From Owenia fusiformis (Eukaryota; Annelida; Polychaeta; Sabellida; Oweniidae): 64,000 nucleotides of DNA. The translations under genes were made by a program, and so were the position numbers. Below are positions 8,125-56,309 of this stretch, one piece after another. The notes beneath the pieces are model-generated. The model saw only the letters and a program-made list of their open reading frames with translations, made no database searches and was not told where the DNA came from. The DNA is taken from assembly GCA_903813345.2 (NCBI GenBank), contig CAIIXF020000007.1, positions 33,052,538 through 33,116,537 of the forward strand, written 5' to 3'. The first letter of the stretch is position 1. Every line of letters begins with the position of its first letter.

Positions 8125-8505
8125 CTAGATTCCATTCTTAGTTGTATATTGACTTAATGTAGTTCGTTTTTCTAAATTTAAGAAATATTTGCTTGATTTT
8201 TCTCCGTATTCGCACCATTTTGTTTTGCCTCTTAACATACTACTTCTTGTTTTTCTATGTTGAATTATTTCAACCTTTAATTTACTTCTATTGTATTTTG
8301 TCAGATTTGTCTCGTCATTGTTTTTATCCAATTCAATTTGTGCTTTATTTAATTCAACCAATGCTTCTTTTTCCTCGTTCTTCCTTTCTCTAGCTTTTTT
8401 CTTACAGAATTTTATGCACTCTGATCTGATTTCAAGTCCTGGGTCAGTTGTATTTTTATATTTAATCTTTGCATCTTCAACTGGTGAGCTTTTGCAATCG
8501 CTCAC
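8125..8505 (-). pseudogene. LINE ORF2 linker between endonuclease and RT
   Basis: A 126-codon frame, rich in Lys and Glu, ending in KWCEYGEKSSKYFLNLEKR, the conserved stretch just before RT in L1/Tx1 ORF2 (often W...GE...YF..LE). The first few codons come from the family C head, so the Met at the start is not a real start. The endonuclease end continues beyond the family C block, at 10978-11218. Confidence 0.75.
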
Positions 8506-16230: not shown

Positions 16231-16939
16231 TACATTTCATCAAAAAGAAAAAAGATTATTGAAAATGTCAAACATTTCTTTGAAATCCATTATTGCACAG
16301 CGATTTTTGAGAGCGAAATGTATGCTAAATTGGCCTTGATCTGAGTATATAACGGAATTAAAGCTCATTTAAACGGAAATGTAAATGTGTGGAAACCCTT
16401 TCACTGTGCATCATGTCAACGAAATGTTCTTCATGCAGTTGAATTATCTTCTGGACAGGTGATCACACAGAAGGAGAGATGTTGCGAGTTCGAGACACAC
16501 GTGCTCTTTGCGTTTAATAATCAACAAAAATCACTTAAACCTGCACTAAAACAGTGTGTCAGATCGATAGAAGTATAGGGTTTGGAAACTAATTGTACCA
16601 ACAAAAAGAACTTAAAAAACACTGCTACAATATCAACATAAGCTTTCAATAGTAGTGACGATGCAGAAACATGCAAAATGTCACCACACCTTGTTAAGTA
16701 TACAGTACACATTAACTACTGAACAGTGTCAAGATAAACGTTCGAAGCTATTACAATATGTCACCCAATCACTAGTGGTGGTGACATAAAAATAATGTAT
16801 AGAAAAATCTTGAACCAAAATAAACTTTGTGATAGAAGAACTGATTGTTTACTCTATTTTATCGAAAAGCAAAAATGATTTCATGTTATATAAAATCAAA
16901 TAAATTAATTATATTTTTTTCGTTGTGTTAGTTACACCA

Positions 16940-23047: not shown

Positions 23048-23269
23048 AGCCTTCGTCATAGTCACCACATAAATATAGCTCCACGTCAACTGACATGGTT
23101 TCAGACGTGTAGCTAACAGAGAATTTTCTTAAACATGTACTTGAGCATGGACTAACGCGTTCAGGTTCATGGTTTGCATTTGAGCGTGTAGCTTAACCTC
23201 TCTATTGCCTGTCCCACCCTGTGAGTATACTTACTGTGTGTTTGACCACCTTGTTTTTATATATTTCAG

Positions 23270-23378
23270 CCAAGAAGAGGCCCAGAACATTGACCAAGAA
23301 TTGTTCACAGAGTATGGCTTCAGTGTAGACCAATTGATGGAACTAGCTGGTCTTAGTTGTGCTGTTGCTTTAGCCAAG
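23270..23378 (+). CDS. NAXE: NAXE exon a (first visible)
   Basis: Preceded by 'atatttcag' and followed by GTATGT. After one base finishing a split Ser codon, 36 codons encode the [12 protein letters not shown] start of the YjeF_N domain and [16 protein letters not shown]. It ends in phase 0. The reading frame open upstream to 23205 is intron sequence. The 3' half of this exon, with its donor, recurs three times at 24662-24900. Confidence 0.93.
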
Positions 23379-32300: not shown

Positions 32301-35300
32301 AAGCCAAGACATACACGTTTAGACGATGCTATTTTCAGTTCAGTGTAAGAGTAAATGCCCGGATATCGAGGCTTTTTCGTGTAAAGTTTTAACCAAGCAT
32401 CTAAAATCGGGTTATATTGCGTGTAGAATTTATCGATATCAGGGCCGCTACATGCCAGTGAAACATAGTGTTTCGTAGTTTTTTGCAAGCATTTCCAAAT
32501 AGCATTTGAAATATTCTAATGACTTCCCCCCCTGTAAGCATTCGCGCTTCAATGTAGTCCAATGAAACATATCATTCTTTCTATTAATCATTATATTCTG
32601 GTTAAGGGAAGGTAACTGGGATTTTGGTTTTACAGATGATAAGATAACTGATATGCGGTGATGCGGTAACATTACGAGAGTTTATAATGGAGAGCTAAGA
32701 TGTGCAGTTACAGCGTATTGAAAACTAACATGACCCTTACTGTATCTTACATTTCCAGTTACCTTCCCTTAAGCGCTGGAAGATATCGTTGGACTGTGGC
32801 GCCACGTGTGATGACATGAAAAAATTATCATACTCCATACTTCCCATGTCATATAAGTTTGATTTGGTTCAAATATCAAAGCATAACGTTAACTATAGAC
32901 TAGTTTAATTCGATGAAAACTAAAAATATCGAAATCGACAATTAGCGTCCACCATCTTACATGCGAAGGTAACGGCTGTTACCTTCGCTTGATACTGACC
33001 AGTGACCAGGATAGAAATGGTCTGGCCAGGAATGTCCCCTTAAATGTAGGAGATGTGGATCATTTTCCCATGTTGTAAACATACTGGCAAACTCATTACA
33101 CATTCTGGTCCTGGCATGGGATAAACTCTTCCTACTTGGTATTCTACGGAGACATATTTTTACTGATAAAAACAGGGATTCATTAGCTTAGCATAACAAG
33201 CATTTAAGTCAGAATAGCTGCATCAAGTCAATATGAATGTTTTAGAAATTAGAAATCTGCATAATAAGCTGCTTTGTATAGTTAGTAGCTAGCTTGAAAT
33301 GCTATTTTCATTGACATTTTATCATCTGATTTTATATGCTTAAACCCAAAGGAGTTATAGTCATCTCTGAAATGTAGTGATTATAAATAACTTTAGCTGG
33401 GACTTTGTTTTTGTAGCAATTATAAAAGGGCAATTTTGTGTCATATTCACTCTTGTAATTATCCCAGCGAATGAAGTTTGAGGGGGATATAGAAAAGCCA
33501 TCCATCCGTCTATATATATATATATCTTTTATTGACTCTCTGATGTCATTACAATGACATATTAGTCACTAAAAACTACAATCTACAAAACTGACCTAAG
33601 ACTAAAATAACTATTGAATACAAAAATAAAGTTGTTGTCAAATACAATTCTAATTACATCATCAAATGTAAAATACAGAATACAAGATAATTGTACATGT
33701 AAAATACAAATATAACTTGACAGAAATTTAAATATCAGTGTGATGCATCGTTGACACATTAATCCAATTTTTTGAGTGAATGATAGATGAACTTTGCTAA
33801 ATGTAAAATTACATAAGAATTTTTGTGAGACATTAGTTTTTTAAAAATAATGTCAGGACTGCCTACAAAATTAAATCGTGTAAGGGTGTCAAACAAAATT
33901 TTTCTTTCTGTAGTGTTTTTCTTACAAATCATGATGAAGTGTTGTTCATCTTCTAAAATACCACAAATATTACATAAACGTTCATCTACAGGTTTTGGCT
34001 TTGGCTTTAAATGACGACCAAGTTCTATATGTAACTTGTGGGAACTAAGCCTAAATCTACAAATTGCTTGCCTGTAATTTTTATTTTGGATATTTAAATA
34101 ACTCTCTCTTTCAAAGACATTTTTGAATTTAACATAAGTTCTCAAGACAGGGTAATTTAATATATCTTTGTTCCATTGAGTTTTATAATTCTGATACAGT
34201 GTTTTTGTTATTGTCTTGATAAAAATATTGTCATCATCAATCTTTTGAGTATCCCAATAAGATAATAAATCACACTTTTTTAAAATATCAATGACTTTGT
34301 TTGACCAAGTGCCTTTAAAACCAAATTGACTCATTTCACGGTCATATATATATGTTTTATGAAGAATGTTTCCTGGTGATAGGTGAAGTAAACGGAGCCA
34401 ATATTTAATTAATTTGATTTCAAAACGTATTTTTAACGGCTAGCGTCCCAATTCTCCATAAATTGCTGGTGTTGAAGTTGATTTTTTAACACCTAACAGA
34501 CATTTAAGAAAAGATAGGTGCATTATCTCTATTGACTTCAGATGTTTTTCATTGATCCACACCTCCGAGGCATAAGTTAAAATAGGTTCAACTAAGGAAT
34601 CGAAAAGGTGCAATGCAACATTAACTGGAATGTCATTAAATTTTTTATATTGCTGTTTAACTTTAAACAAAGCTTTCCTTGCTTGCTCTTTCAAGTAAAA
34701 TACATGCTGGTCAAAATTCTTTGTTTTACTTAATACACATCCAAGATATTTGTACTGCTCAACATTTTCTATAGCACTATCATTGAATCTGAAAACTGCA
34801 TCAACTTTTGAGTTAAAAATAATTGATTTTGTCTTCATTGTGTTAACTATGAGATGATATCTCTTACAGAAATCAAAAAGGCAATTGAGCAAAATTTGGG
34901 CACCATCTTTACTATTTGACATCAAGATAAGATCATCAGCCCAAAGTAAATGGTTTAACATATTTCCATTAAATTGAATACCATTTTCTTTTGGTAAATT
35001 ATCTTTTAAGTCATCAAGGAAATGGTTGAATAAATAGGTACTAAGTACAGAGCCCTGCATTACTCCAACATCTGTTTCAAAAGTAGGGGTGATACCTTCT
35101 TTAAATTTTAGGCATGCTTTTGATTTTTCATACATACTAGATATAACCTTGAATATATTAGAATTAGGTGAAATTCCTGATTTACAAAGTTTATACATAA
35201 GCGCCACTCTATTTACATAGTCAAATGCTTTTCTAAAATCTATCATGATACAGTATAGAGGCTTTTTCATGAGCTTATAACGGGCTAAGATTGTATTTAA

Positions 35301-38300
35301 AATATATAAATTATCTGTTGTTTGATGTCCAGGTTTATATGCCCCTTGGAGTGGATCTTGGATATCTAACATTTCAGCATTAAAAACAAGTCTGTTTTGT
35401 ATTACTCTATCAAAGATATTACCGATACAAGTCAACACATTTATTCCCCTATAGTTATCAGGATTAAATCTACAACCTTGTTTAAAGAGAGTTGTTAACA
35501 TGCCTATACTCCATTCATTAGGGTAGTCACCATGAGAAAAGATGTGATTAAAAAGGGACGTGAATTCAGGGACTAATATACTGCAATTCTTAATGATATT
35601 AGAAGATAACCCATCTATTCCAGGTGCTTTGTTAACTTTAACCTTATTGAGAGCAGCATATACCTCAGCTTCCTTTATATTGCTATTAAGCACTTCGTGA
35701 CTAAATCCAATTTCTCTGCTCAAAACACTATTTTTATCATATTCATCTATAAATAATTGCATCTCTTTTAATGCTCCATCGTCAAAATAGTCTATTTTGG
35801 GATTCTTACCCAACTTTTCAAAAGCACAAAAAAGTTCTGATGCCTCAATAGGGATTTCATTTGTATTACTGCTACCTGGGATACTATTTATCATTTTCCA
35901 AAATTCTGTTGGATTTTTAGATTTGAAAGAAATGAGAGATTTTAAAAGATTTGACTGATATGTTCTTTTCTCGCGCTGTTTAGTTTGGTTATACGTTCTC
36001 TGTAAATCAGCAATAATGTTATTAGGTAGCTTCTGCTTAATTGCAGAATGTAAATCCTTTTTCAATTTTTTGCATTCACTGTTAAACCATGGATTCATTG
36101 GGAACTTTTTAGTACTTTTCTTTAAATGTTTAAGTGGGAGTATTTTATCAGAAGTGTCATATATAACATGTTTAAGAGACTGTAGTAAATAATCTGAATT
36201 AGTTTTGGAACCAACATCAATATAAAATTTTTCAAGTAAACCATTGTTGATATTTGCATCCAATAGATCGGTGAATTGTTCCTTTAATTTATGATCCCAT
36301 TTAAAGTATGAGTAAGGTAAATTCTGCATATTTTTGCTGACTTTATTTTTAATTTTGGCCTGACCTAGATTAAGATTAAAATTTATAGGACAGTGGTCAG
36401 AATCTGGACGCCTTTCATGTACTTTAAAGTCTGAAATTGTATTAAGTATATCAGCTTGAACTGCAACGTAGTCTAATACAGATTTTCCCTTACTTGGATC
36501 CAGGTTAATTTCATTTATGTATCTATAGTATGTAAATTGACCAATGTTTTTATCATGAAAAAATCTGCCATTTAGGATTCTTAAATTAGATGCCTTGCAT
36601 AGACTTATGAATTCATTGCCATGTGTCTGGCTTATTGCCTTTATATTTTTATCCATTGAAACACGGTTATGAAGAGGGTCACTTGGTTCATGGTGATGAT
36701 TATTATTATTTATATAGTGATCATTTAAAAAATAAGAATTGGTAAACTGATCATTCGATCCATGAATGTCAATATTCATATCTGATAACTGGGCAGTGCG
36801 GGCATTCATGTCTCCGCATATGATTGTTTTACCAGAAAGTTGATAGGAGGCAATTGATTTTTCTAAAATGTCAAAGTTGTCAAAATGTTCATAAGTTGAA
36901 CCTTTATGAGGCATATAAACAAAACAAATATCATTCTCTAAATTGTAAAAAGAAGACTTAACTCTTAACCATACAAAGAAATCATGAGTCTGTTTTAGCA
37001 CTTCAATTGAATTATAACAGTCATCTTTTATGAAGACAGCTATGCCTCCAGAATAAAAATTTGAGTTTGTGTTTTTGGTTTTTCTTGCGAGATTATGTAC
37101 AGTATAACCATTGAATGATATGTTGTCACATGGATCCAGCCATGTCTCACTTAACAGGATCACTGAATATTTACTGAAGAGCTCATAGATATCACATCCG
37201 TCGTATAACTTATCGGAAATTCTGTTAATATTCCAAAATAGAAAATTTATATCACCTTGACTCATATTATCATTTGTTTGCTTTAAATTACCATTTATGT
37301 TGTTGTCAGTTGATTTGAGCCTATAGCGCAGATCCTGCGACTGGGCATTCAACTGTGTTGTTATAGGACTAGAGGGTTGAATATTGATTTCATTTTGGGA
37401 AACTTGACTTAACGTGGTGTTTAATTCCATATTGTGGGGGCCCAAATCAGAATTATTTGGAGTTACATTATTTGCACAAAATGGAGCTTCACTCATTATC
37501 ATATGATTTGAATCATGGAAATGAATAGAATTGTGTTTTATCTCATTTAAAGAATCACTCATACATTCTGTGTTTGAGATGCTATCACACTGATCAGTGT
37601 TTATAACTTCAGTCCAGTTCGAGATTTGCGAGGGTTTCCCATGCTTACTGCCTCTGCATAGGAGTTGTGTGTTGAGTTAATGATAGACAACATTGCATCT
37701 ACCAACCGAGTTCTTCCAGTGAAGTTAAAGTGAAGATTGTCATTATATAGTACATTCATGTTAGGGTCCAGTGATGTTGAATCGTTAATTCTGTTGATGT
37801 TAATGAAATGAAAGCCTTTCTTCGTGGCAAAAGACTCCATCTCTCTATTGACTTGGTCTATTTTCATATTCATTTGTTTCACTTCCTGAGGATTGTGATG
37901 ATCTGCCCTGTGGTGCAGTCCACATAGAGTTATTTTGGATGTTGGGTGCTGGTTTTGAGCTGTAATTGCCAGATTTTTCAACTCGTAAGTAATGGTTTGA
38001 GCAGAGTCAACTTTAACGTTGTTTGTTCCAAAACCTAGGAATTTGTGATCTGTTGATTTGCCAATGTCACCTTGTTGTATGATACGGGTGGCATCTTCGA
38101 TGTTAGCACCACTATACACTGATGAGGTCACTTTCATGTTTTTCCCCTTTGATCTATTGTGCATCATACCTGATAGTTTCTTCCCATTTGAGGAGTACAT
38201 TATATGGACAGTTGTTGGGAGCTGCTTGGAACTATTGATATATTTTCTTGGGGATGGTTTTGGGGGGCTCCTTGAAGGTACTTTGGGGGGTCTGTTAGGG

Positions 38301-41300
38301 GGTTGTGTAACAGGCCTCTTGGCAGTAGAGGCTGATATTCCTTCATTGTCATGAGTGGGGAATCGCTTTGTAGCAGGATTTTTGTTTACAAATCTCTTGG
38401 GTATGCTGGTTTTTGAGGTAGTCTGTCCTTTTTGGGAAATGGTTGGAGGCGACATTGATTGTGGGAGTGACTGATCAAAATCATGACATCCCATCTGTTG
38501 AAACCTCTCAATAAGGGCGACATTTTTCCTGTGTTGTGTTGCAAGGTCTGCTTTAAGCCCCTGTATTGTAGTTATTTGCCACTTCTCGTTTGATTCATAG
38601 CATTCAAGCTTACTTGCCAGATCTCTCGTCTCTTGTTCATGGAGTTGTTTTGCCATCTGAATTTCATCTTCTTTCTTCTTGTCAGCTGATTGAAGCCTAT
38701 AGTGCAGATCCTGCAACTTGGCATTCAGCTGAGTAATGTGTTGACTGTGTTCAATAGATTCCTCTTCAAGCCTCTTTTCAAGAGAGATAATCCTAGTCCT
38801 CAGTTTTTTGTTTTCACATTGTAACTCCGATGTTATGCTTGGTGTGTCAGGTTTAGAAGTGGATTCTGTCTGAGTAGGAGATATATTTGATAAATGCAAA
38901 GATCCTGTCGCTGGTTGGGATGCATTTTGAGAAAGCGGTTTTTGAGTATCAAGCTGAGTTTCTGGTATAACAGTGGGCTGTATTAGAGACTGAGATTGAG
39001 ATATTTGGGCAGATTCACCACTGTCAGCTTGGGTATTGGGTATAGTATCATTACCCAAGAAGAAGATAATACTGTCCTCGCCAGTGTCTATTTCCTCGGA
39101 TTGGCTTATGAAGATATCCTCTTGCGTTTGTGCGGGTAATGTTCCACTACTGTGAGTATTACAAGGAGTTGAGGTAGATGGCAGAGATGTAGAGTATGAA
39201 TCAGGAGTAGATGTTATTTTCAAAGAAACTAATGTTCCTTTGATCAGATCAAAATCATTGTCTCTCCAGTCCTGTAGCTCTTCTCCAAAGACTGTAATAA
39301 TGCCTGAGTCACTGACTTCTACTGTCACATAATCTGACACAGTTATTTTAGTTCCATGTTTGAGGCGTGCTGTTGTTGCTTTCATACCTTTTCGCTGATA
39401 GAACTGCTTGAAAGCCTCTAACCATAGAAGTGTTCGTTCTGTGTAGAATACCAGACTCATAAACTCATCATCTAAAACTAGTACACCTGTGTTTTGCAAA
39501 TCCTTGTACTCAAAGTTCTCATGTAATGTCTCTGGGTTTTTCTTGAGGGTTCTCATTGTCTGTTTCTTTGTATTTCTTCTTTTCTTCCCCTTAGCATCAG
39601 GTGTGGAGAATGTTTTTGTGCATGTACGCCGAGTTTCTCTGTCTTTTTTCTCCATAGCCATTTTTCTGAGTAATAAGTCAGTTTATATAATTAACATATG
39701 ACTGCATCAAAAATATGTATTATATCCAATTGTTGTAATTCATATCCCTTTCTAGCATGTGTCTATAATAGTTCAAAAAGTAGATATGTTTTTGTTTTCC
39801 ACACACCCTTCATGTTCAATATATAGGTATGTTTTCAAGTTCAATATGTAGGTATGTTTATGCTATTCCATTCACTCCCTCAGTTTATATACATGTTTTA
39901 ATTACTTCAAGTAATTAAGTGGCTGTTCCATTCACTTCTCAATTATGAAAAACAATTTAAATGGCTGTTCCATCCACTCCCTGTAGATTTTCCATATACA
40001 TTTTTGCTATTTATATATTATATATGTTTCCTAAATTATATTAAATCATTCTGTTCATAAGAATAAAGATTTATTCCAGGTTATTGTTTTTATATCATCC
40101 ACTGAGATGTTTAGCTGAAGCTATCTAAAAGTTTTTTCAAAAATTTCAAGAAATCTCTTTGTTTGATTATTTGTTTTTCCATTGTTTAAAACTAAGAACT
40201 TTTCTTGTAAATATCCTTGTAGATAATGTCCACACAATTGTTTTAATCAGTCCAATGTGTTCCCTGAAGGTTCATGTATAATCCAATGTAGTTCCTTTCC
40301 TCAAAATACTTTTAAACACTCTTGAAACTTGATATTGATAGGAGCAAAATTATGCAACATTTAACTGGCAGCCATTTTGGATCACCATTCGTCCGTCCGT
40401 CCATTTGGGTGTCCGAGCAATAACTCAAATACCGGTTGACGGATTTCATTAAGATTTGATAGGCTTATGCCTCTGACATTTTCAAGATGGCCACCATATT
40501 TCAAATATTTCAATATTTGAAAGTTATCTTTCATAACTGAAATACCATTGAATGGATTTGGTTCAAATTTTACATGCTGATGCCTAGGGACAATGGAGCT
40601 CTGCTCGAGAAGGGATTTTCAAAATGGCCACCATTTTTCGTAAAAAAACATAATCATTAATGACTCAAATACCAGTGGATGGATTTGGTTCCAATTGTAT
40701 ATGCTGATGTTTAGGGAAAAAGGAGATCTGCTTCAGAAGAAATTTCAAAGGCGTCAGCTGAATTTCAAAATGGCTGCCATTTTTCATAAAAAAGGTAATC
40801 TTTGATAACTCAAATACCATTGGACGGATTTACTTCAAATTATATATACTGATGCCTAAGGATAAAGGAGCTCTGCTTGAGAGGACATTTTCAAGGTGGC
40901 TGCTATTTATCGAAATCTCCGCCATTTTTCATTAAACATGTAATCCTTGATAACTCAAGTACTAGTTGACGCATTTGGATTAAATTGTATACGCTGATGT
41001 CTTTGGACATAGGAGCTCTGCTAAAGAAGAAATCTAAAGATGGCAGCTGAATTTCAAAATGGCAACCATGTTTCATAAAAACATAATCTTTGAAAATTCA
41101 AATACCAGTGGATGGATTTGGCTCAAATTTTATATGGCTGCTATTTATCCCCGGTATTTATCAAAACATATTTTGTTAGGTGGGATTTGTTACTCCGTGG
41201 AGTTGCTGTTTTTCTAGTTGTCAGTACTGTTGAGGCCTCAAATTTCCAGATCCACTCCTGATCAAAATATCAGGTGGCCAGATTGTTAGAGTTGAAGGAC

Positions 41301-44300
41301 CCTCTGATAGGCCCAGGAAAAAATCTTGGGGCCTCAATTAGTGGGCCTTTGTAGACATTACTTGGCCTTTTTTAGGCCGAATTATCAAAAATGGACCTTA
41401 ATTTTTCAAAATTTGCAGGGCCCAACCCAAAAATTTGGCGTAAAAATTTGCCCCCCCCCCCCCCCCACTTGTTACCTCCGGATCTACCAGTGAATATTAA
41501 ATGAAAGTTAACTGTTGTAGGCTTACCCTCTGGAAACACTGACTAAGGACAATGGAGCTGTGCTTGTGTGTTGTGGTCCAGGAAACAATGGAGGAGATGG
41601 TTTAGTGTGTGCCAGACATCTGAAATTATTTGTAAGTGAATACTGTACACGTGTTAGATAAGTCAGGGGTAATTATCCCAACGAAAGAAGTTTGATAGGG
41701 ATATAGTGAAGCCCTCCATATGTCAGTCCATCAGGAATTTGCTTTAATTTTGAGATCTTTTTAAAGTACATCTTTAATATACTCAAATGAAAGTCAATAT
41801 ACTATATTAGAGTAGATTGCAAATGTTGTATCCTTTTTATGTCCCCACCACATGGTGTGGGGCCATATTGTTTGCGTGTCTGTCTGAACGTTAATACATT
41901 TGCATTATATAATAAGGTGATTTTGAGTTTTCATGATAAAAATGTTTAGTAGCTTTATAAATAGTTTCAGGTATCCTGTATTGAAAAAGCTCATGTCACT
42001 GTTAAAAGTAGTTTTATGCGATAATTTTGTATAATGAAAGAACGAATGGCTATAGACACCCCTGGGGTCACTTAACATTTTTTGAAAAATGCAATGTCGT
42101 TAATATCAGGGTTCGTACACACCTGGAAATGTCAGGGAAATTGATTTATTTTTCCAGGTGCTGGAAATGTCAGGGAATTTTAAAATTGGGTCAAAAAGGG
42201 CCAAAAATGTCAGGGAATTTTCTTTTCATTAGGGTTGGTTGAATGACATTAGATCTGGTATTGTCTATTTGTAAGAACAGTGTGAACATAACACTGAAAC
42301 CGAATATAAAAATAATAGATGATTTAATACAATTATGAAAAACAAAAAAAATTCTGGGAGCTCTTTACAATGTAAAATTCTATTTATATTAAGAAGCTGT
42401 CTGTTCGACAATCCGATCGTACGTCAGTCTTTTCAACTTTCAGGGGCTTTGCCAATTTTGAAAACCTTAGCACATGGAAGTAGGCAACCAAAATGTGTGT
42501 GGGGTACTATTAACAGTTTTTGAATTTGGTCCAAATTTTTCTTCTTGTAAAGATGAACCCAGCATTTTACTTTGGCTCAAATTTTGTATGATGTAGCCTT
42601 AGGGACAAAGGACCTGCTAAAGAAGAAATATTCAAGATGGTCTCTGAATTCAAAATTGCCACCATTTTTATGACATTTTTGATAATTTAAAGAAATTTGA
42701 TTCCTGATAACACAAAATACTGATTATTTGATTTGGTATCATAGGCCTGAGCCTTTTCGTGATCTGGTGATGCTACTTGAGAAGGAATTTCTAATATGGT
42801 GTCAATTGTTTTGGTGTAATTTTCCCAAAAGGGAGAAGACAATAGTAATGCCAGGTTATTGCTATCATATAATGTTCACAATGATAGTATTCAATAGAAA
42901 TATGTTTCATTAGGTGGGAATGGCCCCTCAAGTGAGTTGCTATTTTTCTAGTAGGATTTAGATCAAAATTTTAAAGTTTCAGTTGTCATTTGGATTCATT
43001 TCAAAACATTAACAAATTATAGTTTGAAATGCTTAGAATGCACCATATACAATTGTCAATTTTGAAAAATTTCCGGGGGTGAACCCCCGTACCCCCTCTT
43101 GGTTTTCCTTCGCTAGCAGTGATGCAAACCCCAAAAGATGCACCTCCTTGATACTTGTTGGCTATGCCCCTGTACATGTATGTTTACCTTTGGCCTTATG
43201 CAATGTAGAATATGTAATATTAAAAATAAAATGTATCAGGAATAAATTGGTGAATAAGACTGCCTGTACAAGTAGTTAAGTCATGAGAAATGGAACTGAA
43301 GGAGAAACCCCAAATGTTTCATAATAAGTCTTTTTGTCTTGAATAATACAGTTGTTTGAGACTTTTTAGAGGGCGCGCGAGGTAAATTAGATCTGGAAAT
43401 TTCCTTTTTTGCCTGGAAATGTCAGGGAATTGTCAGGGAAATTCATTTTGAAAAAGGTGTACGAACCCTGAATATCCTTAATATGTAGGATCAAATTGTA
43501 GATAAATATGTATATTTTCAAGAAATAGCAATAAAAAGCATTTAAGATTACTGATATAAGTATATTTTGGTTGATTTGGGAGGTATGTATCACTTCCTGT
43601 GAAAATGTGAATTTTTTATCAGTCTCAGAAAATGTCTCCAGAATGTATAAACCCAAATTGGCAGATGTCCCATTGTTTAATTGTGTCACTCTATACACTC
43701 ATTGGATTAATATTTTGTACATATAAATAGTTTAGTTTAAGTTTAATAATAGTTTATTTCTGTGTCACACTGTGGCTAGTTGATCTATGTGGATGCAGTC
43801 ATTTATATGTAATGTATCGTGGGTACTCGCGTACATTATAGGGAATGGGATCATTGCAAAAATATGACAGCAAATCGAGGTAAGTGATCTCAGAGTTTCT
43901 ACTTAACATTGTGACTTGAAATCTTGCACACATATTCAATATACATAGTATGACAATGTGTGAAAGTTTCAGCTACCATATTCCTGTTATAGGGAAGATA
44001 TTTGAAACACATTTCGTAAACGTCAACATATATGTATAAAATGGATGCACCTATGTATCATTTGGATTCAGAACGGTAACAAATGGATGCTTTAATAAAT
44101 TATACTTTTATCATGATGATTTATTTACTGATGGACAACTGGCCAGATTTTCTTTGTATCCATTGTTTGGATAAACATTCCTCATTCAGTAAAGTAATTA
44201 GCCACCCCATTACAAGTAGTCTAAAGGCACCCTCATGAAAAATTGAAAATACTATATATAAACCCATCAACTGGAAAATGCCATTACAGATGAAATAAAG

Positions 44301-50300: not shown

Positions 50301-53300
50301 CATTACTGGTTTTAGGGCTAACTGTACTCATCAACAGTTATGTTGTGGCCATTTTGGATTTTTTTTCATAAAATCTTCTCTATGAACACTTGTCTACACA
50401 TTTTCAGTTGAACTGTTTGACAGATCAATTTCAAATTTTTAGGGATGTTTCTTAGTATGAAAATCTAGGACTGATTAGTTTTTCTGCATTCTGGGAAAAA
50501 ATTAAGGTGCCCATTTTGAATTTCCTGTCCTAAAATAGTGTTTGTGAAGTCTACTCATTTTCAGGATAATCATTTGATGGATTGATTTCAAATTTTCAGG
50601 GATGATTTTAAGTATGAAAAGTAGTGATTAGTTTTTCGGCATTCTTGGTAAATGTAAAGGCAGCCATTTTGGATTTTCTGTCTTAAAATCTTGTCTGTTA
50701 AGTTTTGTTTACTCATTTTCAGGATTATCATTTGACAGATCTATTTCAAATTTTCAGTGATGATGTTTAGTATTAAAATCTAGAACTTATTAGTTTTTTG
50801 GCATTCTTGGGAAATGTAAAGGCAGTCATTTTTGATTTTCCGTCCTAAAATCTTGTCTGTAACGTCTTGTGTACTCATTTTCAGGATAACCATTTGTCTT
50901 ATCGATTTAAAATTTTCAGGGATGATTCTTAGAAAGAAAATCTAAAATTGAATAGTTTTTCGGCAAATTAGATAGATGTTAAGGCAGCCTTTTTTGGATG
51001 TTCCGTCCTAAAATCTTCTCTGTAAAGTCTAGTCTACATGTTTCCTGGTAAACAAGTTGACAGGTAGATTTCAAATCTTCAGAAATGATTCTTGATATGA
51101 AAATCTCAAACTACTTAGTTTTTGGGCAGTCTGGGTAAATTTTAAATCGGCCACATTGGTTTTTAGTCTTAAAATCATGACTACAACTCATTAGTGTTTG
51201 GCATTCAGCTTTGCTCAAGAAGACATTTTCAAGATGGCTGCTAAATTTCAAAATGGCCAGCATTTTTTCCTAAAAACTTAATCTTTGATACTCAAGTACC
51301 AGTAGACAGACTTTGTTCAAATTTTATATGCTGATGCCAAGGGACACAGCAGCTCTGCTGGATAAGAAATTTTCAAGATGGCAGCTGAATTTCAAAATGG
51401 CCACCATTTATTATAAAAGAGTGTAATCTTTGATAACTCAAATACCAGTTGACGGATTTGGTTGAAATACATTTATCATATGCTGATGCCTAGAGAGAAA
51501 GGAGCTCTGCTAAAGGAGACATTTTCAAGAAGGCCCTTAATTTCGAAATGGCCACCATTTTTTGTTGAAAATCCTAATCTTTGATGATCAAAAACCAGTA
51601 GACTGAGTTGGTTCAAATTTTGTACACTGATGCCTAGAGATAATGAACTCTCCTCAAGATAGCAGCTGAAATGGCCACCATTTTTCATAAAAAAACATAA
51701 TCTTCAATAAATCAAATACCAGTGGACTGATTTGGTTCTAATTTCATATGCTTAAACCTAGGGACAAGGGAGCTCTGTTCACGAAGAGATTTTCAAGATG
51801 GCCACCATTTTTCAAAACATGTTTTGTTCGGTGGAATTTTCTACTCAGTGAAGTTGCTGTTTTTTCTAGTTTGATAAAATAAAACATAAATACCTGCATT
51901 TTTACTGTAGGGCTATAAACCAACCATATTCTACCCTAAGAGACCTAACAAGCCACTGTTTGTAAACCTTGTGAACCAATGTGAGAAATTTGACATCCCG
52001 TTTCTCTCCTACATCCCTGCAGAGACGAGCCTTCTTAAAGATCACTACAATTTCATCATCGATGCCTTGTTTGGCTTCAGCTTCAAGGGTCCAGTAAGAC
52101 CAGAGTTTGCAGAGATTCTAGAAAGACTTCAGCAACTGGAGACACCTATATGTAGCATTGATGTACCATCAGGTATGAGATACCTATATGTAGCATAGGT
52201 TTACCATCAAGTACACCAATATTTATCATAAATGTACAATCAGGTATGAGACTCATATATGTAGCATAGGTGTTCCATCAGGTAAGAGAAACCTATATGT
52301 AATATAGATGTACCATCAGGAACGAGACACCTATATGTAATATAGATGTACCATCAGGTATGAGACACACATATGTAGCATAGGTGTTCCATCAGGTAAG
52401 AGAAACCTATATGTAATATAGATGTACCATCAGGAATGAGACACCTATATGTAATATAGATGTACCATCAGGTATGAGACACACATATGTAGCATAGGTG
52501 TTCCATCAGGTAAGAGAAACATATATGAAGTATAGATGTACCATCAGGAATGAGACACCTATATGTAGCATAGATGTACCATCAGGAATGAGACACCTAT
52601 ATGTAATATAGATGTACCATCAGGAATGAGACACCTATATGTAGCATAGGTGTACCATCAGGAATGAGACACCTATATGTAATATAGATGTACCATCAGG
52701 TATGAGACACACATATGTAGCATAGGTGTTCCATCAGGTAAGAGAAACATATATGAAGTATAGATGTACCATCAGGAATGAGACACCTATATGTAGCATA
52801 GATGTACCATCAGGAATGAGACACCTATATGTAATATAGATGTACCATCAGGAATGAGACACCTATATGTAGCATAGATGTACCATCAGGAATGAGACAC
52901 CTATATGTAATATAGATGTACCATCAGGTATGAGACACACATATGTAGCATAGGTGTTCCATCAGGTAAGAGAAACATATATGAAGTATAGATGTACCAT
53001 CAGGAACGAGACAGCTATATGTAGCATAGATGTACCATCAGGAATGAGACACCTATATGTAATATAGATGTACCATCAGGTATGAGACACACATATGTAG
53101 CATAGGTGTTCCATCAGGTAAGAGAAACATATATGAAGTATAGATGTACCATCAGGAATGAGACACCTATATGTAGCATAGATGTACCATCAGGAATGAG
53201 ACACCTATATGTAATATAGATGTACCATCAGGAATGAGACACCTATATGTAGCATAGATGTACCATCAGGAATGAGACACCTATATGTAATATAGATGTA

Positions 53301-56300
53301 CCATCAGGAATGAGACACCTATATGTAATATAGATGTACCATCAGGAATGAGACACCTATATGTAATATAGATGTGCCGTCAGCAGGCCTGTCAATTTGG
53401 GAACACCTAACAAGGTAAAAGGAACAAAAAACAATTGCACTAAAAAACAAAAAATGTTAACAAAAACAGTAATATAAAATATATATAAATTATTTTCGCA
53501 TTAAATTGTTTGTTTTTTTTAAATTAATTTATTAACATTGAAACATTTATACAATTTTTACATAATATGCAGAACTTATTGGTTATAGATTTTACTATTT
53601 CTTTGTGTCCAAATTTCAAACTTGTGTTTAAACACTAAATGATTTCTATAGCATTTGTTCTCAAAATCTCCTTCATTGTTATAAAATAAAATTTCTTGTT
53701 CAGAAAACATTAAATTGTTGTCAATCAGTCAACATTACATAAAGGACCGTGTTTTTTACAGTATGTTTTCAATAATTGGTTGAAGAGAAAAACATTGCTG
53801 AATTCAGTCCATATCGATACCAATCCTTTTATTGCATTTCACCAAATTTTGGACACCTCAAAATTTTCGCGCTTGCTACGCTCGCGTTATTTAGACTATA
53901 ATATTACCAATACCTATCAAAATGGTAAAAGAACTCAATAATATTGTATTTGTAAATTAATTTGCTTTCATTTGACATTGTTTGATACACAAATCAAAAA
54001 TTTTGTCCTTCTATAAAGCTGGCATAGGGGTTATATCTGTCTAGTCAGTTTTTAGCATACCGCCTTCAGCAATCGGTAAATCATGATTTTGGCTTCGGGC
54101 CAAGTTATAAACATTGCAAAAGTCAGTGTACGGAGCCAGATGCAATATTGGACGAAAACATAAAATCAATGCTGACTGTATCCTTTTAATTCAATGTACC
54201 AAAAAGCCAAATTACTCCTCTTTGCAATGGAATATCATTCATTAACAGGGGGTCATCTCTGGCCGAATAATCATTAATTTTGCAAAGTGGGGCAAAATTC
54301 AGCTCGGACCCAAGTTTTAAACATCACAAAAGTCAGTACAAGGGGTATAGGGGCTATTGGAAGAAGTTGTGACAGGTATGGTATAGACAGTAAAGTGTTC
54401 ATACTCATACTCTTGCAAGAATACATCCTATAACCCTCCAAATTGCCACCACTTCCTTGCATATAAAGATGCGCTCATCTGTCCATGTCAAGCATGGTTC
54501 AGCCCTGAATCATGTGTGGGTTAAAGCAGAGAAAAGCAGCCCATGGGCAAATCTCTCTCGAGGTTTTGCAATATCTTGTAGAGGAATTGTGAGCACAGAT
54601 GCTCTTGAGATAGCTCCAAAAGAAAAAGTCACAACAATTCAAGTCAGGGGAACTTCCATTGGCACTTAGCCCTTGCACTGATTTTTTCAATATCTAAAAC
54701 TTGGCGCAGAGCCGATTTTGACCCACTGTGCAAATGGAAGGATTTCTCACCCAACCATTACCACATGTGAATGAATGACATATCATTGCAAAGAGGAGAG
54801 ACATGGCTTTACGGTACATTAAATGAAATTGATGTAGTCATCACTAGTTTTGTGATTTTACGAGATAACTACTTGTTGTGTTTTTTTTGATACACCCTGT
54901 ATATCATTTTGTTGGAAATTGAATTGTCTTTCCAATGATATGATTTAAACATTTGTCTGTAGTATTAAAAATGTTGTAGTACAACAAAAATATGGATGTT
55001 TTTTGGCCCACTCTGTAGATTGAAGAGAAAACCAATAAAATACAGCATCATTTCTGAAACATATGGAACACCGTGTAAGTTAATGCCGTCAATATGAGCT
55101 CAGGTCCTGAACCAAGTGCCTCTACCATGGGGTAGTAAAAGTGTGATTATAGAATTATATAAATTAAGTAAATTATGTAAAAATTTCAGGTGATTTCCTT
55201 TACTTAGAAAAACATACTACAGCATTTTTATCAGAACTTCTGGATCGGCCTTTGTATAATACCAGTTAAAGTGAAACCTACTTTTTCATTGGTTACAGTT
55301 CGACATAAAATAATTAAAGTCTGCATGCCCTTATCTTAAATATTATTTTAATGGCTTCCATTTTCGAAGATTGTTTTAAATCAGACGTCCTGTTCTCAAT
55401 AGGCGTATTCCTATAAAATAATTGAGTTGTATTCAGAATCTAGACAGACAAACAAACAAACAAACGGTCGGATGACTTTTTTATATCTTTGGATTAACTG
55501 GAAACGACGACAGGTTGTTTTGGTCTCAAAATGTGCTCCCGTTTGTAAGGATGAATAATGAATATTATGTATCAAAACTTGAAAACTGTCTAATCATATT
55601 TTACTCCAAATAAACTTTGAATATGTGTTGACTCATTTGTCCGTAAATTACTTTTTGCGCTTAAATCGTCTCTTCTTAAAGGTTACAAGCAGATAAATAT
55701 GTTACAATTCACGCGGGAAAATTTTCGGTACAATGTGCGTGAGTCAGTATTATAGTATTTTGATAGCTCTAATAATAGTAATTGTAAGATTAGAAGACAG
55801 ATTAATTGTGCTGATGGGCACATGACTCTGTTCAAGAAGGAATTTTCAAAACGGTTGTTGTTACTCAAAAAGTAGTAGTAGATTGAAAACATATTAAGTT
55901 ACCTTGAAGTAATCCATCAAAATGTGAAGAAATATATAAAAAGCATTTTTTAAGTAGTATTTATTGAGATCGTTTTTGCGCAATGAATACTTAATTTTTA
56001 TCTTCAGGTTGGGATGTTGAGGACGGTGATCCAGCAGGATTGAAACCAGAGTTTCTCATTTCTTTAACGGCGCCGAAAAAATGTGCAAAATTATTTACAG
56101 GCAAGTATCATTACCTGGGTGGAAGATTTGTGCCTCCTGCACTCGCTCAGAAATATAACCTGATGCTGCCTAAGTATCCTGGCACAGACTGCGTCATTGA
56201 GTTGCACACACAGGGACTAGCGCCATCTAACCATGATTTAGGTCTAGCAGAGTCTGCAGCGTTGTCATCAGAAATTGAAAACGGCGAAAAAAGTTTAAGT

Positions 56301-56309
56301 GAGAAATGA
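23270..56309 (+). CDS. NAXE: NAD(P)H-hydrate epimerase, four exons, 5' end missing
   Basis: Exons 23270-23378, 41521-41631, 51911-52172 and 56008-56309 join in frame to about 260 residues, matching vertebrate NAXE/AIBP from the SQEEAQ...DQELF motif to the C-terminus. The enzyme interconverts R and S forms of hydrated NAD(P)H so that the S-specific dehydratase NAXD can repair them; it is usually mitochondrial or secreted. Visible: the YjeF_N Rossmann-like fold, the GPGNNGGDG loop in exon 2 of this set, and [12 protein letters not shown] and SIDVPSGWD, whose Asp residues line the site in the family. All introns begin GT and end AG, with matching phases (0, 0, 1). The start Met and targeting peptide lie in an upstream exon not identified here; the first visible codon is split (AG|C). 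The C-terminus is about 25 residues longer than in human NAXE. Confidence 0.93.
23420..24253. mobile_element. MITE with TA duplication, copy 1 (NAXE intron)
   Basis: TIRs of GAGAGATTTCGCAC (14 bp perfect), then partly matching 'tagtgaaa.tacaacttata' for about 45 bp; TA on both sides (23418-23419, 24254-24255). It begins only about 40 bp after the NAXE donor. An inverted, truncated copy is at 57735-58395. Inside, around 23480-23500 and 23660-23690, 'gtgtttcataatg' and 'cattatgaaacaccctgta' form a second inverted pair. Tc1/mariner-type by duplication; no transposase. Confidence 0.75.
24662..24900 (+). repeat. Three decayed copies of NAXE exon a tail plus splice donor
   Basis: Three direct copies of the exon end and first intron bases. 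Donors fall at 24713, 24794 and 24865, spaced 81 and 71 bp. The last copy is closest: ATGGAACTACCTGGTCTTAG, then the exon run up to GCCAAG|GTATGTAAGGG and a ..CCAGTAT intron stretch; it differs from the true exon by one base in that stretch plus a GGACC for GGCCC. The middle copy has an extra GTGCT repeat. The first is most diverged. No acceptor is seen before them, so they are not exons. Confidence 0.85.
24905..26195. other. Intron sequence with no gene seen
   Basis: Starts with 'gccgtagggagagggggttc' and a C9-A9 run at about 24931-24949, a type of repeat end that recurs near 41449 as a C-run. A G9 run lies at 25671-25679. The rest is AT-rich without supported ORFs or repeats that I can name. 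Confidence 0.5.
26196..27059 (+). mobile_element. Family A repeat element (complete)
   Basis: Head ATCCCACCGAATGAAGTTCG with GGGGGAT, a short TCCG run (26235-26255), four to five body units with 'taactcaaataccagtgaacgg', 'cctagggacacagtagctctg' and 'caaaatggcggcca', and the end GTTCGATGGGATT, the palindrome-like ACTCCATGGAGT, spacer and CTAG-TT. No gene. It lies in NAXE intron 2, sense orientation. Confidence 0.8.
27112..28735 (+). mobile_element. Family D repeat element with three tandem heads, 3' truncated
   Basis: The family D head is GACTCCAGATT, loop GAA, AATCTGGAGTC, then TATTGCTTTTGCC. Here a partial head (27114) is followed by two full heads (27161, 27220), about 60 bp apart, each ending in 'gccagttttc.tattattat'. 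The body has three units of about 475 bp with 'aggtcaaaatctaggtcaaattcatag', 'gacactacactttaat' and 'tttgacccacttttgagatatggtgtccgaaaagtaggtc', starting near 27355, 27830 and 28305. The expected 3' inverted terminus is absent. 28736-29700 holds no gene I can support. Confidence 0.7.
29708..29850. repeat. Perfect 38-bp inverted repeat (hairpin)
   Basis: The arms 29718-29755 and 29803-29840 are exact reverse complements, starting TGGAGGTTTTGGATACAGGG. With one mismatch the pairing extends ten bases outward, to 29708 and 29850. The 47-bp loop contains a second small palindromic part, 'cttccc..ggtcccttcggtccc..gggaag'. A diverged relative lies at 31437-31580. Confidence 0.9.
30198..30224. repeat. 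27-bp near-perfect palindrome
   Basis: GCGGGCAGATATA, one central C, then TATATCTGCCCGC: 13-bp perfect arms. It is part of the palindrome cluster and lies just left of the 1.2-kb fold-back element. Confidence 0.9.
30388..30538. repeat. Long hairpin, first inner
   Basis: 'aggatatcctatgatttatgagtgatatgattttaatccac.aatggatatgatatctgcac' pairs with its complement on the right ('gtgcagatatcaacatcc.taagtggattaaaatcatatcacgagtaaatcataggat'). The arms are about 60 bp with a few mismatches, and the loop is GAGTGAGCGTAGCGAGAGA. Confidence 0.8.
30838..30978. repeat. Long hairpin, second inner
   Basis: 'aatatcacttatatccatgagtggatattgatatcttc' pairs with 'gaagatactgatatccatgagtggatataagtgatatt'. The loop GCCAGTGAGCGCAGCGAATGAGT is related to that of the first inner hairpin. 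Arms are about 40 bp plus outer 'cctatg/cataggat' pairing. Confidence 0.8.
31437..31840. repeat. Diverged palindromic block with tandem GAAGCGGGAAGATA
   Basis: 31440-31580 is an imperfect hairpin related to that at 29708-29850 ('ggttttttggatatggggttt' against 'aacccaatatccaaacc'). It is followed at 31680-31745 by tandem units 'gaagcgggaagatacgcccc'. The next 760 bp (31841-32600) have no recognised feature. Confidence 0.55.
32606..32768. mobile_element. 163-bp MITE with TTAA duplication
   Basis: Perfect 14-bp TIRs GGGAAGGTAACTGG, with TTAA on both sides (32602-32605, 32769-32772), as for piggyBac-type insertions. Family assignment rests only on TTAA. Confidence 0.65.
32963..32988. repeat. Hairpin GCGAAGGTAAC-GGCT-GTTACCTTCGC
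   Basis: An 11-bp perfect stem with a 4-nt loop. The stem resembles the TIR of the 163-bp element 200 bp to the left (GGGAAGGTAAC), so both may be parts of one family. Between 32989 and 33460 nothing else is recognised. Confidence 0.8.
33461..33510 (+). mobile_element. Family A head, split from its body by a LINE
   Basis: Head ATCCCAGCGAATGAAGTTTG, GGGGGAT and the first 'ccatccatccgtc' of the microsatellite, then the LINE begins. The microsatellite and body resume at about 40388, with the end at 41219. Confidence 0.75.
33759..37562 (-). pseudogene. LINE ORF2: endonuclease-reverse transcriptase with one stop
   Basis: About 1267 codons open but for a single TAG at 34440-34442. Domains: unique N-terminal stretch (1-105); apurinic-type endonuclease (about 106-400) with NINR, LLSETW, GDMNA and SDHCP motifs (Asp/His near 247 and 388); reverse transcriptase (about 630-900) with [10 protein letters not shown] (about 772), GVMQGSVLS and WADDLILM (about 873; YADD in most LINEs); and a C-terminal region with C-x2-C-x7-H-x4-C at about 1195. 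The frame continues uninterrupted past the stop for 35 codons and then through the segment starting at 34334. The stop replaces one residue after YGELGR. Without that TAG it would be a normal-length ORF2. The ORF begins 38 nt after the ORF1 stop. Confidence 0.88.
37601..39661 (-). CDS. LINE ORF1 with coiled coil and SGNH-hydrolase-like domain
   Basis: 686 codons, intact. N-terminal 1-150: Lys-rich start then a folded-looking segment. 150-280: Ser/Thr/Gln-rich, low complexity. 282-367: coiled coil, [19 protein letters not shown] then [15 protein letters not shown]. 423-477: Pro/Lys-rich, probably disordered and nucleic-acid binding. 480-670: an SGNH-hydrolase/esterase-like fold as in ORF1 of some CR1/L2-like LINEs, with MYSSNGKKL (about 485), GFGTNNVKV (about 543) and DNLHFNFTG (about 643). 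The GDSN motif is YSSN here, so the Ser and Asn are kept but Gly-Asp are lost; the terminal Asp-x-x-His pair is kept. Whether it is an active esterase is doubtful. Start chosen at the first Met; the next upstream codon is not in frame with another obvious start. Confidence 0.88.
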   Translation of the reverse strand: MAMEKKDRETRRTCTKTFSTPDAKGKKRRNTKKQTMRTLKKNPETLHENFEYKDLQNTGVLVLDDEFMSLVFYTERTLLWLEAFKQFYQRKGMKATTARLKHGTKITVSDYVTVEVSDSGIITVFGEELQDWRDNDFDLIKGTLVSLKITSTPDSYSTSLPSTSTPCNTHSSGTLPAQTQEDIFISQSEEIDTGEDSIIFFLGNDTIPNTQADSGESAQISQSQSLIQPTVIPETQLDTQKPLSQNASQPATGSLHLSNISPTQTESTSKPDTPSITSELQCENKKLRTRIISLEKRLEEESIEHSQHITQLNAKLQDLHYRLQSADKKKEDEIQMAKQLHEQETRDLASKLECYESNEKWQITTIQGLKADLATQHRKNVALIERFQQMGCHDFDQSLPQSMSPPTISQKGQTTSKTSIPKRFVNKNPATKRFPTHDNEGISASTAKRPVTQPPNRPPKVPSRSPPKPSPRKYINSSKQLPTTVHIMYSSNGKKLSGMMHNRSKGKNMKVTSSVYSGANIEDATRIIQQGDIGKSTDHKFLGFGTNNVKVDSAQTITYELKNLAITAQNQHPTSKITLCGLHHRADHHNPQEVKQMNMKIDQVNREMESFATKKGFHFININRINDSTSLDPNMNVLYNDNLHFNFTGRTRLVDAMLSIINSTHNSYAEAVSMGNPRKSRTGLKL
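40388..41219 (+). mobile_element. Family A body and 3' end (right half of the split copy)
   Basis: Begins in the microsatellite (TCGTCCGTCCGTCC), with 'gggtgtccgagcaataactcaaataccggttgacgg', then five body units with 'gctgatgcctagggac', 'caaaatggc.gcca' and the end GTTAGGTGGGATT, palindrome ACTCCGTGGAGT, spacer, CTAG-TT. Sense to NAXE. Its head is at 33461-33510, beyond the LINE. Confidence 0.8.
41440..41466 (+). repeat. C16 homopolymer
   Basis: A run of 16 C (41450-41465) follows 'ggcgtaaaaatttg', about 55 bp before the NAXE exon b acceptor. Confidence 0.85.
41521..41631 (+). CDS. NAXE: NAXE exon b (GPGNNGGDG loop)
   Basis: 111 nt, phase 0 to 0, after 'ctgttgtag' and before GTAAGT. Encodes the [19 protein letters not shown]-type strand followed by the [15 protein letters not shown] glycine-rich loop that binds the cofactor in YjeF_N proteins, and ends HLKLF. 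Matches the human protein over its entire length with only a shorter linker. Confidence 0.93.
41675..41837 (+). mobile_element. Family A head, truncated
   Basis: ATCCCAACGAAAGAAGTTTG, then TAGGGATATAG, then 'ccctccatatgtcagtccatcag' (microsatellite mostly lost). The body is missing and family B sequence follows at 41838. A family A body and end that cannot be linked to it lie at 42520-42953. Confidence 0.65.
41838..42106 (+). mobile_element. Family B head, truncated
   Basis: ATGTCCCCACCACATGGTG then TGGGGCCATATTG matches the head at 2705; then a 'gtgtctgtctg' remnant of the microsatellite and the shared unit 'tagtagctttataaatagtttcagg'. It ends at the TIR element. Confidence 0.65.
42107..43470. 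mobile_element. TIR element CAGGGTTCGTACAC with nested family A part
   Basis: Ends CAGGGTTCGTACAC and GTGTACGAACCCTG (14 bp perfect); the flanks are AATAT on both sides (42102-42106, 43471-43475), a possible 5-bp duplication. Near each end are copies of 'ctggaaatgtcagggaatt', direct at left and repeated at right. hAT-like by its CAG start, but no transposase and no 8-bp duplication, so not assigned. The block 42520-42953 with a family A end (TGAGTTGC ... CTAG) sits within it. Confidence 0.65.
43768..46805. mobile_element. 3-kb TIR element (CACTGTGGCTAGT...)
   Basis: The TIRs match imperfectly for about 70 bp, beginning CACTGTGGCTAGT.GATCTA, then 'tgtggatgcagtca' and 'gtaatgt.tc..g.gtac..g'. 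TGTCA lies on both sides (43763-43767, 46806-46810), as 5-bp duplication; a longer 7-bp reading GTGTCAC is possible because the ends overlap. Contains an inverted family E element (44300-45322). Remaining ORFs (44121-44321, 45920-46102) are short and not recognised. The element appears to split the 3' end of the LINE at 46812. Confidence 0.65.
44300..45322 (-). mobile_element. Family E repeat element (related to D and C)
   Basis: Read on the minus strand: head GGCTCACACAGTGAG then ACTATGG, a hairpin CTCAC/GTGAG with outer CATAGT/ACTATG, and a TCCG microsatellite (45232-45275). The body resembles family D ('ccgaaaagtaggtcacaataaaaag', 'tttgacctaggtc'). The 3' end is CACTGTGTGAGC followed by AC and the hairpin AGGACC-GTG-GGTCCT, the same design as family C. 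Lies within the 3-kb TIR element. Confidence 0.65.
47098..47451 (-). pseudogene. LINE ORF2 C-terminus with CCHC
   Basis: Encodes [20 protein letters not shown], then [19 protein letters not shown], a C-x2-C-x9-H-x4-C zinc-binding motif typical for the end of several LINE ORF2 proteins. It follows the fragment at 47526-48113 after a frame change or stop in between. Ends with a TGA-type stop at 47098. Confidence 0.75.
47526..48113 (-). pseudogene. LINE ORF2 fragment, RT thumb and downstream
   Basis: About 195 codons with the run '[18 protein letters not shown]' and [13 protein letters not shown]; this is the thumb and connection region after RT in many LINEs. The catalytic RT part is missing, cut at about 48120. 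The Met at the start is only the first ATG. The continuation at 47451 is in another frame. Confidence 0.75.
48205..48315. repeat. Hairpin of about 100 bp
   Basis: AACGCTTGGTTCTTACCTAGA at 48210-48230 pairs with 48290-48310 with one mismatch. The 59-bp loop has further partial pairing ('atatgtattgaggg' and 'ttgagatatataaa'; 'tacttctaaggtact'). Palindromic MITE or a hairpin precursor; no evidence for either. 48316-49204 holds no gene I can support. Confidence 0.75.
49205..50336 (-). mobile_element. 5'-truncated LINE, copy 2 of second family
   Basis: The 3' end has 'gtgtcactggttta', AGCCGA-TG-TCGGCT and TATGAGACACT, shared with copy 1. Two pieces of ORF2 are seen on the minus strand: 50334-49951 ([20 protein letters not shown]) and 49969-49745 ([19 protein letters not shown], the C-x2-C-x9-H-x4-C motif). 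Frame changes make it dead. A 10-bp tandem repeat lies in its 3' part. Truncated at 50336, where family B body begins. Confidence 0.7.
49311..49360 (+). repeat. AGAATGTCAT tandem decamer, five copies
   Basis: Five perfect copies, directly followed by 'agatATGACATTC', the complement of the unit, so array and flank can pair. Confidence 0.95.
50340..51189 (+). mobile_element. Family B body without head
   Basis: Five units of about 170 bp with 'ttggattttccgtcctaaaatcttgtctgtaaag', 'tttcaaattttcagggatgattctt' and 'ctgattagtttttcggcattc'. Neither terminus is present. Confidence 0.7.
51190..51871 (+). mobile_element. Family A body and 3' end without head
   Basis: Four body units, then GTTCGGTGGAATT, ACTCAGTGAAGT and CTAG-TT. 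The first 40 bp join family B body sequence. It ends 39 bp before the NAXE exon c acceptor. Confidence 0.75.
51911..52172 (+). CDS. NAXE: NAXE exon c
   Basis: 262 nt, phase 0 to 1, after 'tttactgtag' and before GTATGAG. Encodes [17 protein letters not shown], then [18 protein letters not shown] (the Asp here is the catalytic/potassium-binding residue in the family) and ends [10 protein letters not shown], with the Gly split across the intron. Its last 31 nt are the source of the 38-bp array that follows. Confidence 0.93.
52173..53385 (+). repeat. 38-bp minisatellite derived from NAXE exon c end and its donor
   Basis: About 31 to 32 head-to-tail units of 38 bp, each a copy of the exon end 'acacctatatgtagcattgatgtaccatcag' plus the donor 'gtatgag'. 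Where the true donor is GTATGA, 5 units have GTAAGA (donor positions 52282, 52396, 52510, 52738, 52966 and 53118; the first is near the start), about 6 have GTATGA and about 19 have GAATGA or GAACGA, without the GT. Spacing of GTAAGA units is 114, 114, 228, 228 and 152 bp, that is 3, 3, 6, 6 and 4 units, so there is higher-order structure. 38 bp is not a multiple of three. 53386-54150 contains no recognised feature. Confidence 0.93.
54150..54905 (-). mobile_element. Decayed mariner-like element, copy 2
   Basis: The right end is 'ttttttttgatacaccctgtatatc'. The left and right subterminal parts are inverted copies: 'ttcaatgtaccaaaaagcc.aattactcctctttgcaat' and 'attgcaaagaggagagacatggctttacggtacattaaatg'. 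The minus strand at 54690-54499 encodes [19 protein letters not shown], the conserved end of mariner-type transposases (usually PP.SPDL.P.DFFLWGYLK). Dead. Same family type as 12291-12975. 54906-56007 holds no gene; a short family A body fragment is at about 55805-55870. Confidence 0.6.
56008..56309 (+). CDS. NAXE: NAXE last exon
   Basis: After 'atcttcag'. Completes the split Gly, then [35 protein letters not shown] and [14 protein letters not shown], all conserved at the C-terminus of NAXE, then about 25 residues ([14 protein letters not shown]...) with no counterpart in the human protein. Stop TGA at 56307-56309. Confidence 0.93.

Follow-up and report, generated by a model that had tools for sequence, protein, structure and literature searches.

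A minisatellite of exon end and splice donor in the NAXE gene of Owenia fusiformis, and similar arrays at other exon borders

The window analyzed here is a stretch of 64,000 nucleotides from the annelid Owenia fusiformis (assembly GCA_903813345.2, contig CAIIXF020000007.1, positions 33,052,538 to 33,116,537 of the forward strand), and coordinates are those of the window unless another locus is named. It includes the NAXE gene, in which the end of one coding exon, together with the splice donor that follows it, is repeated head to tail in the adjoining intron (52139–53383, + strand), so that a row of decoy donors lies downstream of the real one. This is an exon-border minisatellite of the kind known from human CBS and ABCA7, probably near neutral to mildly costly for the gene. 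Arrays of the same general type were also found at exon borders in five of seven other genes sampled from the genome.

The NAXE exon structure was obtained by spliced alignment with human NAXE as the guide sequence. It has coding exons, all on the + strand, at 23262–23378 (the 5′ limit being the reach of the guide alignment), 41521–41631 (a PF03853 match containing the GPGNNGGDG motif), 51911–52172, and 56008–56309 (the last coding exon, an open frame from WDVEDGD through the stop). The array derives from the exon at 51911–52172, which is 262 nt long, belongs to the PF03853 match and ends with ...DVPS-G in phase 1; all 87 of its residues match the apolipoprotein A-I binding protein 2dg2 (E 7.8e-30). 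Its donor, GTATGA at 52173–52178 (+), was scored with the matrix described below. The intron that begins there is 3.8 kb long (52173–56007), and in the spliced alignment the NAXE frame is intact when the exon is joined through this donor to 56008. The exon-intron border falls within a conserved NAXE stretch, DVPSG-WDVE.

Tandem Repeats Finder (TRF), run on the window, reports the array at 52139–53383 with period 38, 32.9 copies and 85% matches. It divides at 33 unit borders, of which one is the real donor (after 52172) and the other 32 lie in the intron. The head-to-tail recurrence with period 38 in the original prediction is thus as described, while its estimate of about 31 copies is replaced by a count of 32 intronic copies. 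These match the last 31 nt of the exon and the first 7 nt of the intron at 26–36 of 38 positions. The best ungapped match to the unit elsewhere in the intron is 19/38 and the best in 50 shuffles is 22, so chance similarity to the exon end was rejected. The unit can be read in two phases, as 31 exon plus 7 intron nt or, from the TRF start, as 34 plus 4, because GAG is shared. At the sensitivity of the search used, the array was found at one genomic place only, and it was accordingly rejected as a dispersed satellite.

Each unit combines conserved NAXE codons (...ICSIDVPS-G) with the donor, which supports the proposal that the array arose from a duplication spanning the exon-intron border. The conservation of these codons in NAXE marks the exon as the source, from which the intronic copies derive; the reverse possibility, that the exon was copied from an older intronic array, was rejected on the same grounds. 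There are 12 distinct sequences among the 32 intronic units. The first three are each unique, one of them just 33 nt long, and later types mostly recur. The array thus has a tandem unit that includes the exon end and the real donor, and strongly donor-like sequence at 12 of the 32 intronic borders. Tandem duplication of a 38-nt segment spanning the exon end and donor would have placed additional copies in the intron, and these would then have expanded to 32.

The hexamers that follow the intronic borders are GAATGA (16), GTATGA (6), GTAAGA (6), GAACGA (2), GTACAC (1) and CAGGCC (1). This confirms the three donor classes already recognized (GTAAGA, GTATGA and GAATGA/GAACGA) and adds two single forms; with the real donor included, GTATGA is found at 7 of all 33 borders. 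The GTAAGA decoys start at 52282, 52396, 52510, 52738, 52966 and 53118, and the intronic GTATGA ones at 52244, 52358, 52472, 52700, 52928 and 53080 (all +). In all, 13 of the 32 intronic borders retain GT and 19 do not, so it is correct that most units have lost it. Donor strength was estimated with a matrix made from 125 introns in seven other genes of the same genome, with intron borders set solely by fit to the protein and by the GT-AG rule. Nine of 134 introns, those adjoining alignment exons of <25 nt, were dropped from it (5 of 46 in a first version), and one 57-nt intron of SF3B1 that was retained is possibly an artefact of alignment. In this matrix, the real CAG-GTATGA scores 7.26 bits, above 110 of the 125 own donors; CAG-GTAAGA, which had been proposed to be the better donor, does score higher (8.31 bits, above 123 of the 125); and CAA-GTACAC scores -2.58 bits.

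At 12 of the intronic borders the sequence reads CAG-GTATGA or CAG-GTAAGA, which places an acceptor-like CAG directly beside a donor GT. The units might then be recursive or paired splice sites through which the intron is removed stepwise. Scored as acceptors, however, the unit borders range from -6.1 to -1.7, against 8.6 for the real NAXE acceptor and a median of 6.1 for the 125 own acceptors, only four of which fall below the best unit border. These scores do not fit a recursive site, where an acceptor and pyrimidine tract precede the donor, and this role is barely credible.

Sequence identity within the array is highest at a lag of 228 bp, or six units (0.937, compared with 0.866–0.908 at lags of one to five units), and unit types follow one another in a recurring order, T06-T08-T09-T07. 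This higher-order repeat in the core of the array suggests that unit types were spread by unequal exchange, which may also have homogenized the copies. Of the 19 losses of GT, 18 are the identical T-to-A change (GT to GA). Since these lie in recurring unit types, a single change spread by unequal exchange is sufficient to account for them, which favors the simpler of two suggestions made earlier, that one mutated unit had spread. In the core, one unit would have lost its donor GT and one would have gained GTAAGA, each of them once, and both would have spread along with their neighbors. The other suggestion was that the loss may lower competition for the real donor; a related explanation is that selection stripped most units of GT, the decoys being harmful to NAXE splicing. 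Besides the loss of GT at 19 of 32 borders, this explanation can draw on the position of the changes, since position +2, at which 18 of the 29 core units differ from the real donor, ranks second in departure among the 38 columns, and on other border arrays in the genome (see below), which retain their decoys in 54 of 60 copies counted. Among exon-side positions, one departs in all 29 core units and another in 16 of them. Against selection, besides the uniformity of the losses, the stronger GTAAGA form has also spread, to six copies, and the NAXE array is in any case more diverged (85% matches) than 10 of 12 other border arrays (94–98%). Selection against decoys is not needed to account for the loss of GT and is very unlikely to be its cause.

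The consequences of decoy use were examined by joining each GT decoy in silico to 56008 and translating the product. All 13 give the same truncated product, ending at the same TAG (52196–52198, +; the open frame ends at 52198), as foreseen in general terms when distal donors were proposed to lead to stops. The extensions are not the clean multiples of 38 nt that had been proposed, but 38, 71, 109, 185... nt, because an early unit measures only 33 nt, and the list of splice junctions offered with that proposal mixes two conventions, 52172 being the last exon base and 52282 onward the first intron bases. Between the stop and the last junction there are 12 nt for the decoy at 52210, 45 nt for the one at 52243, and at least 83 nt for the other 11. 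By the usual 50-nt rule for nonsense-mediated decay, these distances would make most decoy transcripts targets, and most are expected to be removed in this way. Because all 13 decoys lead to one product, copy number could alter its amount only. The 13 decoys would also lengthen the exon to 300–1207 nt. Internal exons in the alignments of the seven other genes have a median length of 173 nt, with 3 of 127 above 400 nt and the longest at 582 nt (the filter used for introns was not applied to these figures, and some very small alignment exons are among them), and because they are short relative to the decoy exons, the real donor would be expected to win.

Several related cases have been described. 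The human CBS gene has a 31-bp variable number tandem repeat (VNTR), c.1444_1467+7(16_21), at the border of exon 13 and intron 13, with a unit of 24 exon and 7 intron nt (PMC2630376; PMC1395315). As in NAXE, on the 31 + 7 reading of its unit, it spans the exon end and the donor; it differs in having 16–21 copies and being polymorphic in people. A VNTR in intron 18 of human ABCA7, the nearest case for which tests are reported, has a 25-bp unit and begins at the real donor, and use of the donor one unit downstream retains 25 nt, with a frameshift and a stop (PMC5954066). Retention of this unit was 2 ± 1%, independent of array length, and cycloheximide raised the level of stop-carrying transcripts (PMC5954066). 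NAXE is similar in that the array lies at the real donor and use of a downstream donor reaches a stop. In ABCA7 the repeat unit starts with the GT, lies in a C-rich region and is present in about 12 to 427 copies, whereas the NAXE unit includes 31–34 exon nt and most of its copies are without GT.

Intron gain can likewise involve tandem copies of gene segments that contain splice signals. Duplication of AGGT-containing exon segments has produced introns in vertebrate ATP2A1, in fission yeast SPOG_01682 and in Drosophila (PMC4974935), and a potato RNA-dependent RNA polymerase (RdRp) variant has tandem copies of a gene segment with splice signals (PMC2891723). These resemble NAXE in their copies, but they make a new intron, while the NAXE copies grew inside an existing intron of 3.8 kb; its acceptor is outside the array, 2.6 kb past it, which does not fit intron gain by tandem duplication, where both splice sites come from the duplicated exon segment. 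A human GGGCC expansion in NAXE, distinct from this array, is cited in STRchive. The array itself was not found among the best 10 of 240 literature entries on tandem repeats in NAXE, and literature on the human CTNS intron VNTR yielded nothing on splice sites. The sources covered, which leave out most subscription journals, describe single cases of exon-border arrays, and no genome survey was found among them.

Within the genome itself such arrays look common. PRPF8, CLTC and RPB1 had been taken for their donors, and more arrays of this type were then met in PRPF8; VCP and EEF2 were chosen before their sequence was seen, and SF3B1 and RPB2 made up a test set. Counting arrays with thresholds of 30 for period and 100 for length, there are 22 in the seven genes, 12 of them on an exon border, among the 125 introns kept. 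Border arrays occur in PRPF8, CLTC, RPB1, VCP and RPB2; there are none among arrays past the thresholds in EEF2 and SF3B1. PRPF8 has five, all at acceptors, with periods of 53, 136, 102, 85 and 111. The 102-bp array (4.9 copies, L014 3554–4074, G000 C12) lies across its acceptor and has four decoy acceptors identical over 30 nt; the 85-bp array (9.6 copies, L013–L015 joined 23727–24543) has nine near-identical decoys upstream of the real acceptor. RPB1 has one donor array (108 bp, 11 copies, L019–L020 joined 7944–9130), with ten decoys identical to the real donor over 24 nt, and two acceptor arrays. One of the latter (L019–L020 joined 14311–14924), with 21 copies spaced 27–29 nt apart except for one gap of 33, is a mirror image of the NAXE array; 15 of its 20 decoys are intact and five have lost AG. 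In CLTC, a 70-bp donor array (9 copies, L016–L018 joined 15771–16401, reverse strand) has eight near-identical decoys, all of which outscore the real donor (2.0 bits), seven at 4.5 and one at 2.7. RPB2 has two acceptor arrays. VCP has one array starting at the donor, examined only for its donor motif GTATGTAATG, of which there are ten occurrences, counting the real donor.

For 10 of the 12 border arrays, 39 of the 40 decoys counted are intact, and with an 11th array added the count is 54 of 60. Decoy use meets a stop in eight of nine arrays tested (of the 12). The exception is the PRPF8 102-bp array, which is open and in frame, so that decoy use would insert 34 residues per unit. Two further arrays in myosin genes, a 34-bp unit in four copies (100%) at a donor (L007, reverse strand, 3202–3337) and a 260-bp unit in four copies at an acceptor (L010, 5927–7023), were placed by coding signal only and left out of the statistic because their exon borders are approximate. 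As a separate observation, G000 C9:37986009–37994334 has twelve tandem matches to the same stretch of the myosin head (profile 18–84); these may be alternative exons of a muscle myosin gene, used in a mutually exclusive way.

Frequent border arrays need not mean that borders are a preferred place for arrays. In the five-gene discovery set, 10 of 15 arrays are on a border, compared with 3.34 expected (P 1.7e-4), but in the pre-specified test set (SF3B1, RPB2) just 2 of 7 are, with 2.84 expected (P 0.89). The joined figure of 12 of 22 (expected 6.18, P 0.004) is not relied on because it draws heavily on the discovery set. Rates were likewise at chance in a rotation test, with five border arrays seen and 4.99 expected in PRPF8, and one seen and 2.54 expected in CLTC. 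With test set and rotation test both at chance, no enrichment at borders is claimed.

Because similar arrays lie on exon borders in other essential genes, the NAXE array can be seen as ordinary repeat growth that splicing tolerates, not as a switch special to NAXE. Overall, it is likely that it is a tolerated border-duplication minisatellite whose real donor is nearly always used. The exon-proximal donor at 52172 would be favored by exon definition, which prefers a donor near the acceptor of the same exon. Among the decoys, the first few with GT (52243, 52281) probably see occasional use, and their transcripts, carrying the TAG at 52196–52198, would mostly be lost to nonsense-mediated decay, so that NAXE output may be lowered slightly at most.

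Several points weigh against this explanation. Use of the real donor is itself judged indirectly, from the intact frame, and 12 decoys equal or outscore it in the matrix. Predicted pairing with U1 is stronger for the GTAAGA decoys (-11.0 kcal/mol vs -7.2 for the real donor), and the 9-nt site is predicted to be unpaired with a probability of 0.058–0.122 for these decoys as compared with 0.001 for the real donor (0.002–0.013 for the intronic GTATGA sites); by such local measures alone, the GTAAGA decoys should win. In ABCA7 a longer array raised skipping of the next exon, 19 (PMC5954066), and an effect of array length on NAXE by another route of this sort is possible. A study of C. elegans found an excess of one intronic minisatellite near regions of alternative splicing and linked it to genes with several splicing decisions (PMC4039745); by analogy, it is plausible that intronic arrays affect splicing in general.

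These local measures, and the stop met by all decoy products, are also what favors the copy-number-dependent switch of NAXE output put forward in the original prediction, in which decoys compete with the real donor and longer or GT-richer alleles make less productive mRNA. The switch is not upheld here and is considered unlikely. All 13 GT decoys converge on one product, unit retention in human ABCA7 is about 2% and unrelated to array length, and arrays with intact decoys are carried elsewhere in the genome, among them the ten RPB1 donors identical to the real one and the nine PRPF8 acceptors, which match at 26–30 of 30 nt.

Some other features of the region and genome may be noted. The array-bearing NAXE intron also contains a dispersed element of about 815 bp with inverted ends (54089–54903), of which 39 further copies (93–96% identity) were found among 40 candidates scored of 4687. 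The - strand at 34440–39682 has a pair of long open frames, of 1078 and 693 aa, which we take to resemble a retrotransposon of the long interspersed nuclear element (LINE) type. A second PF03853 match above cut-off is located on C10 (L002).

The NAXE array adds an example to the type known from CBS and ABCA7, and would be one case of exon borders embedded in minisatellites, a condition that is seemingly common in this genome. The 12 border arrays among 125 introns of seven essential genes carry more weight than the NAXE array alone. Choice among equal splice sites is usually studied with built minigenes, and these border arrays are natural tests of how splicing selects one site among many. A broader proposal, quite unlikely as it stands, is that arrays of splice sites, donors and acceptors alike, are a standing part of gene architecture in about a tenth of housekeeping introns, with decoy use that is low and dependent on array make-up; changes in copy number would then tune gene output frequently and reversibly, and the NAXE array would be an older, mostly silenced example.

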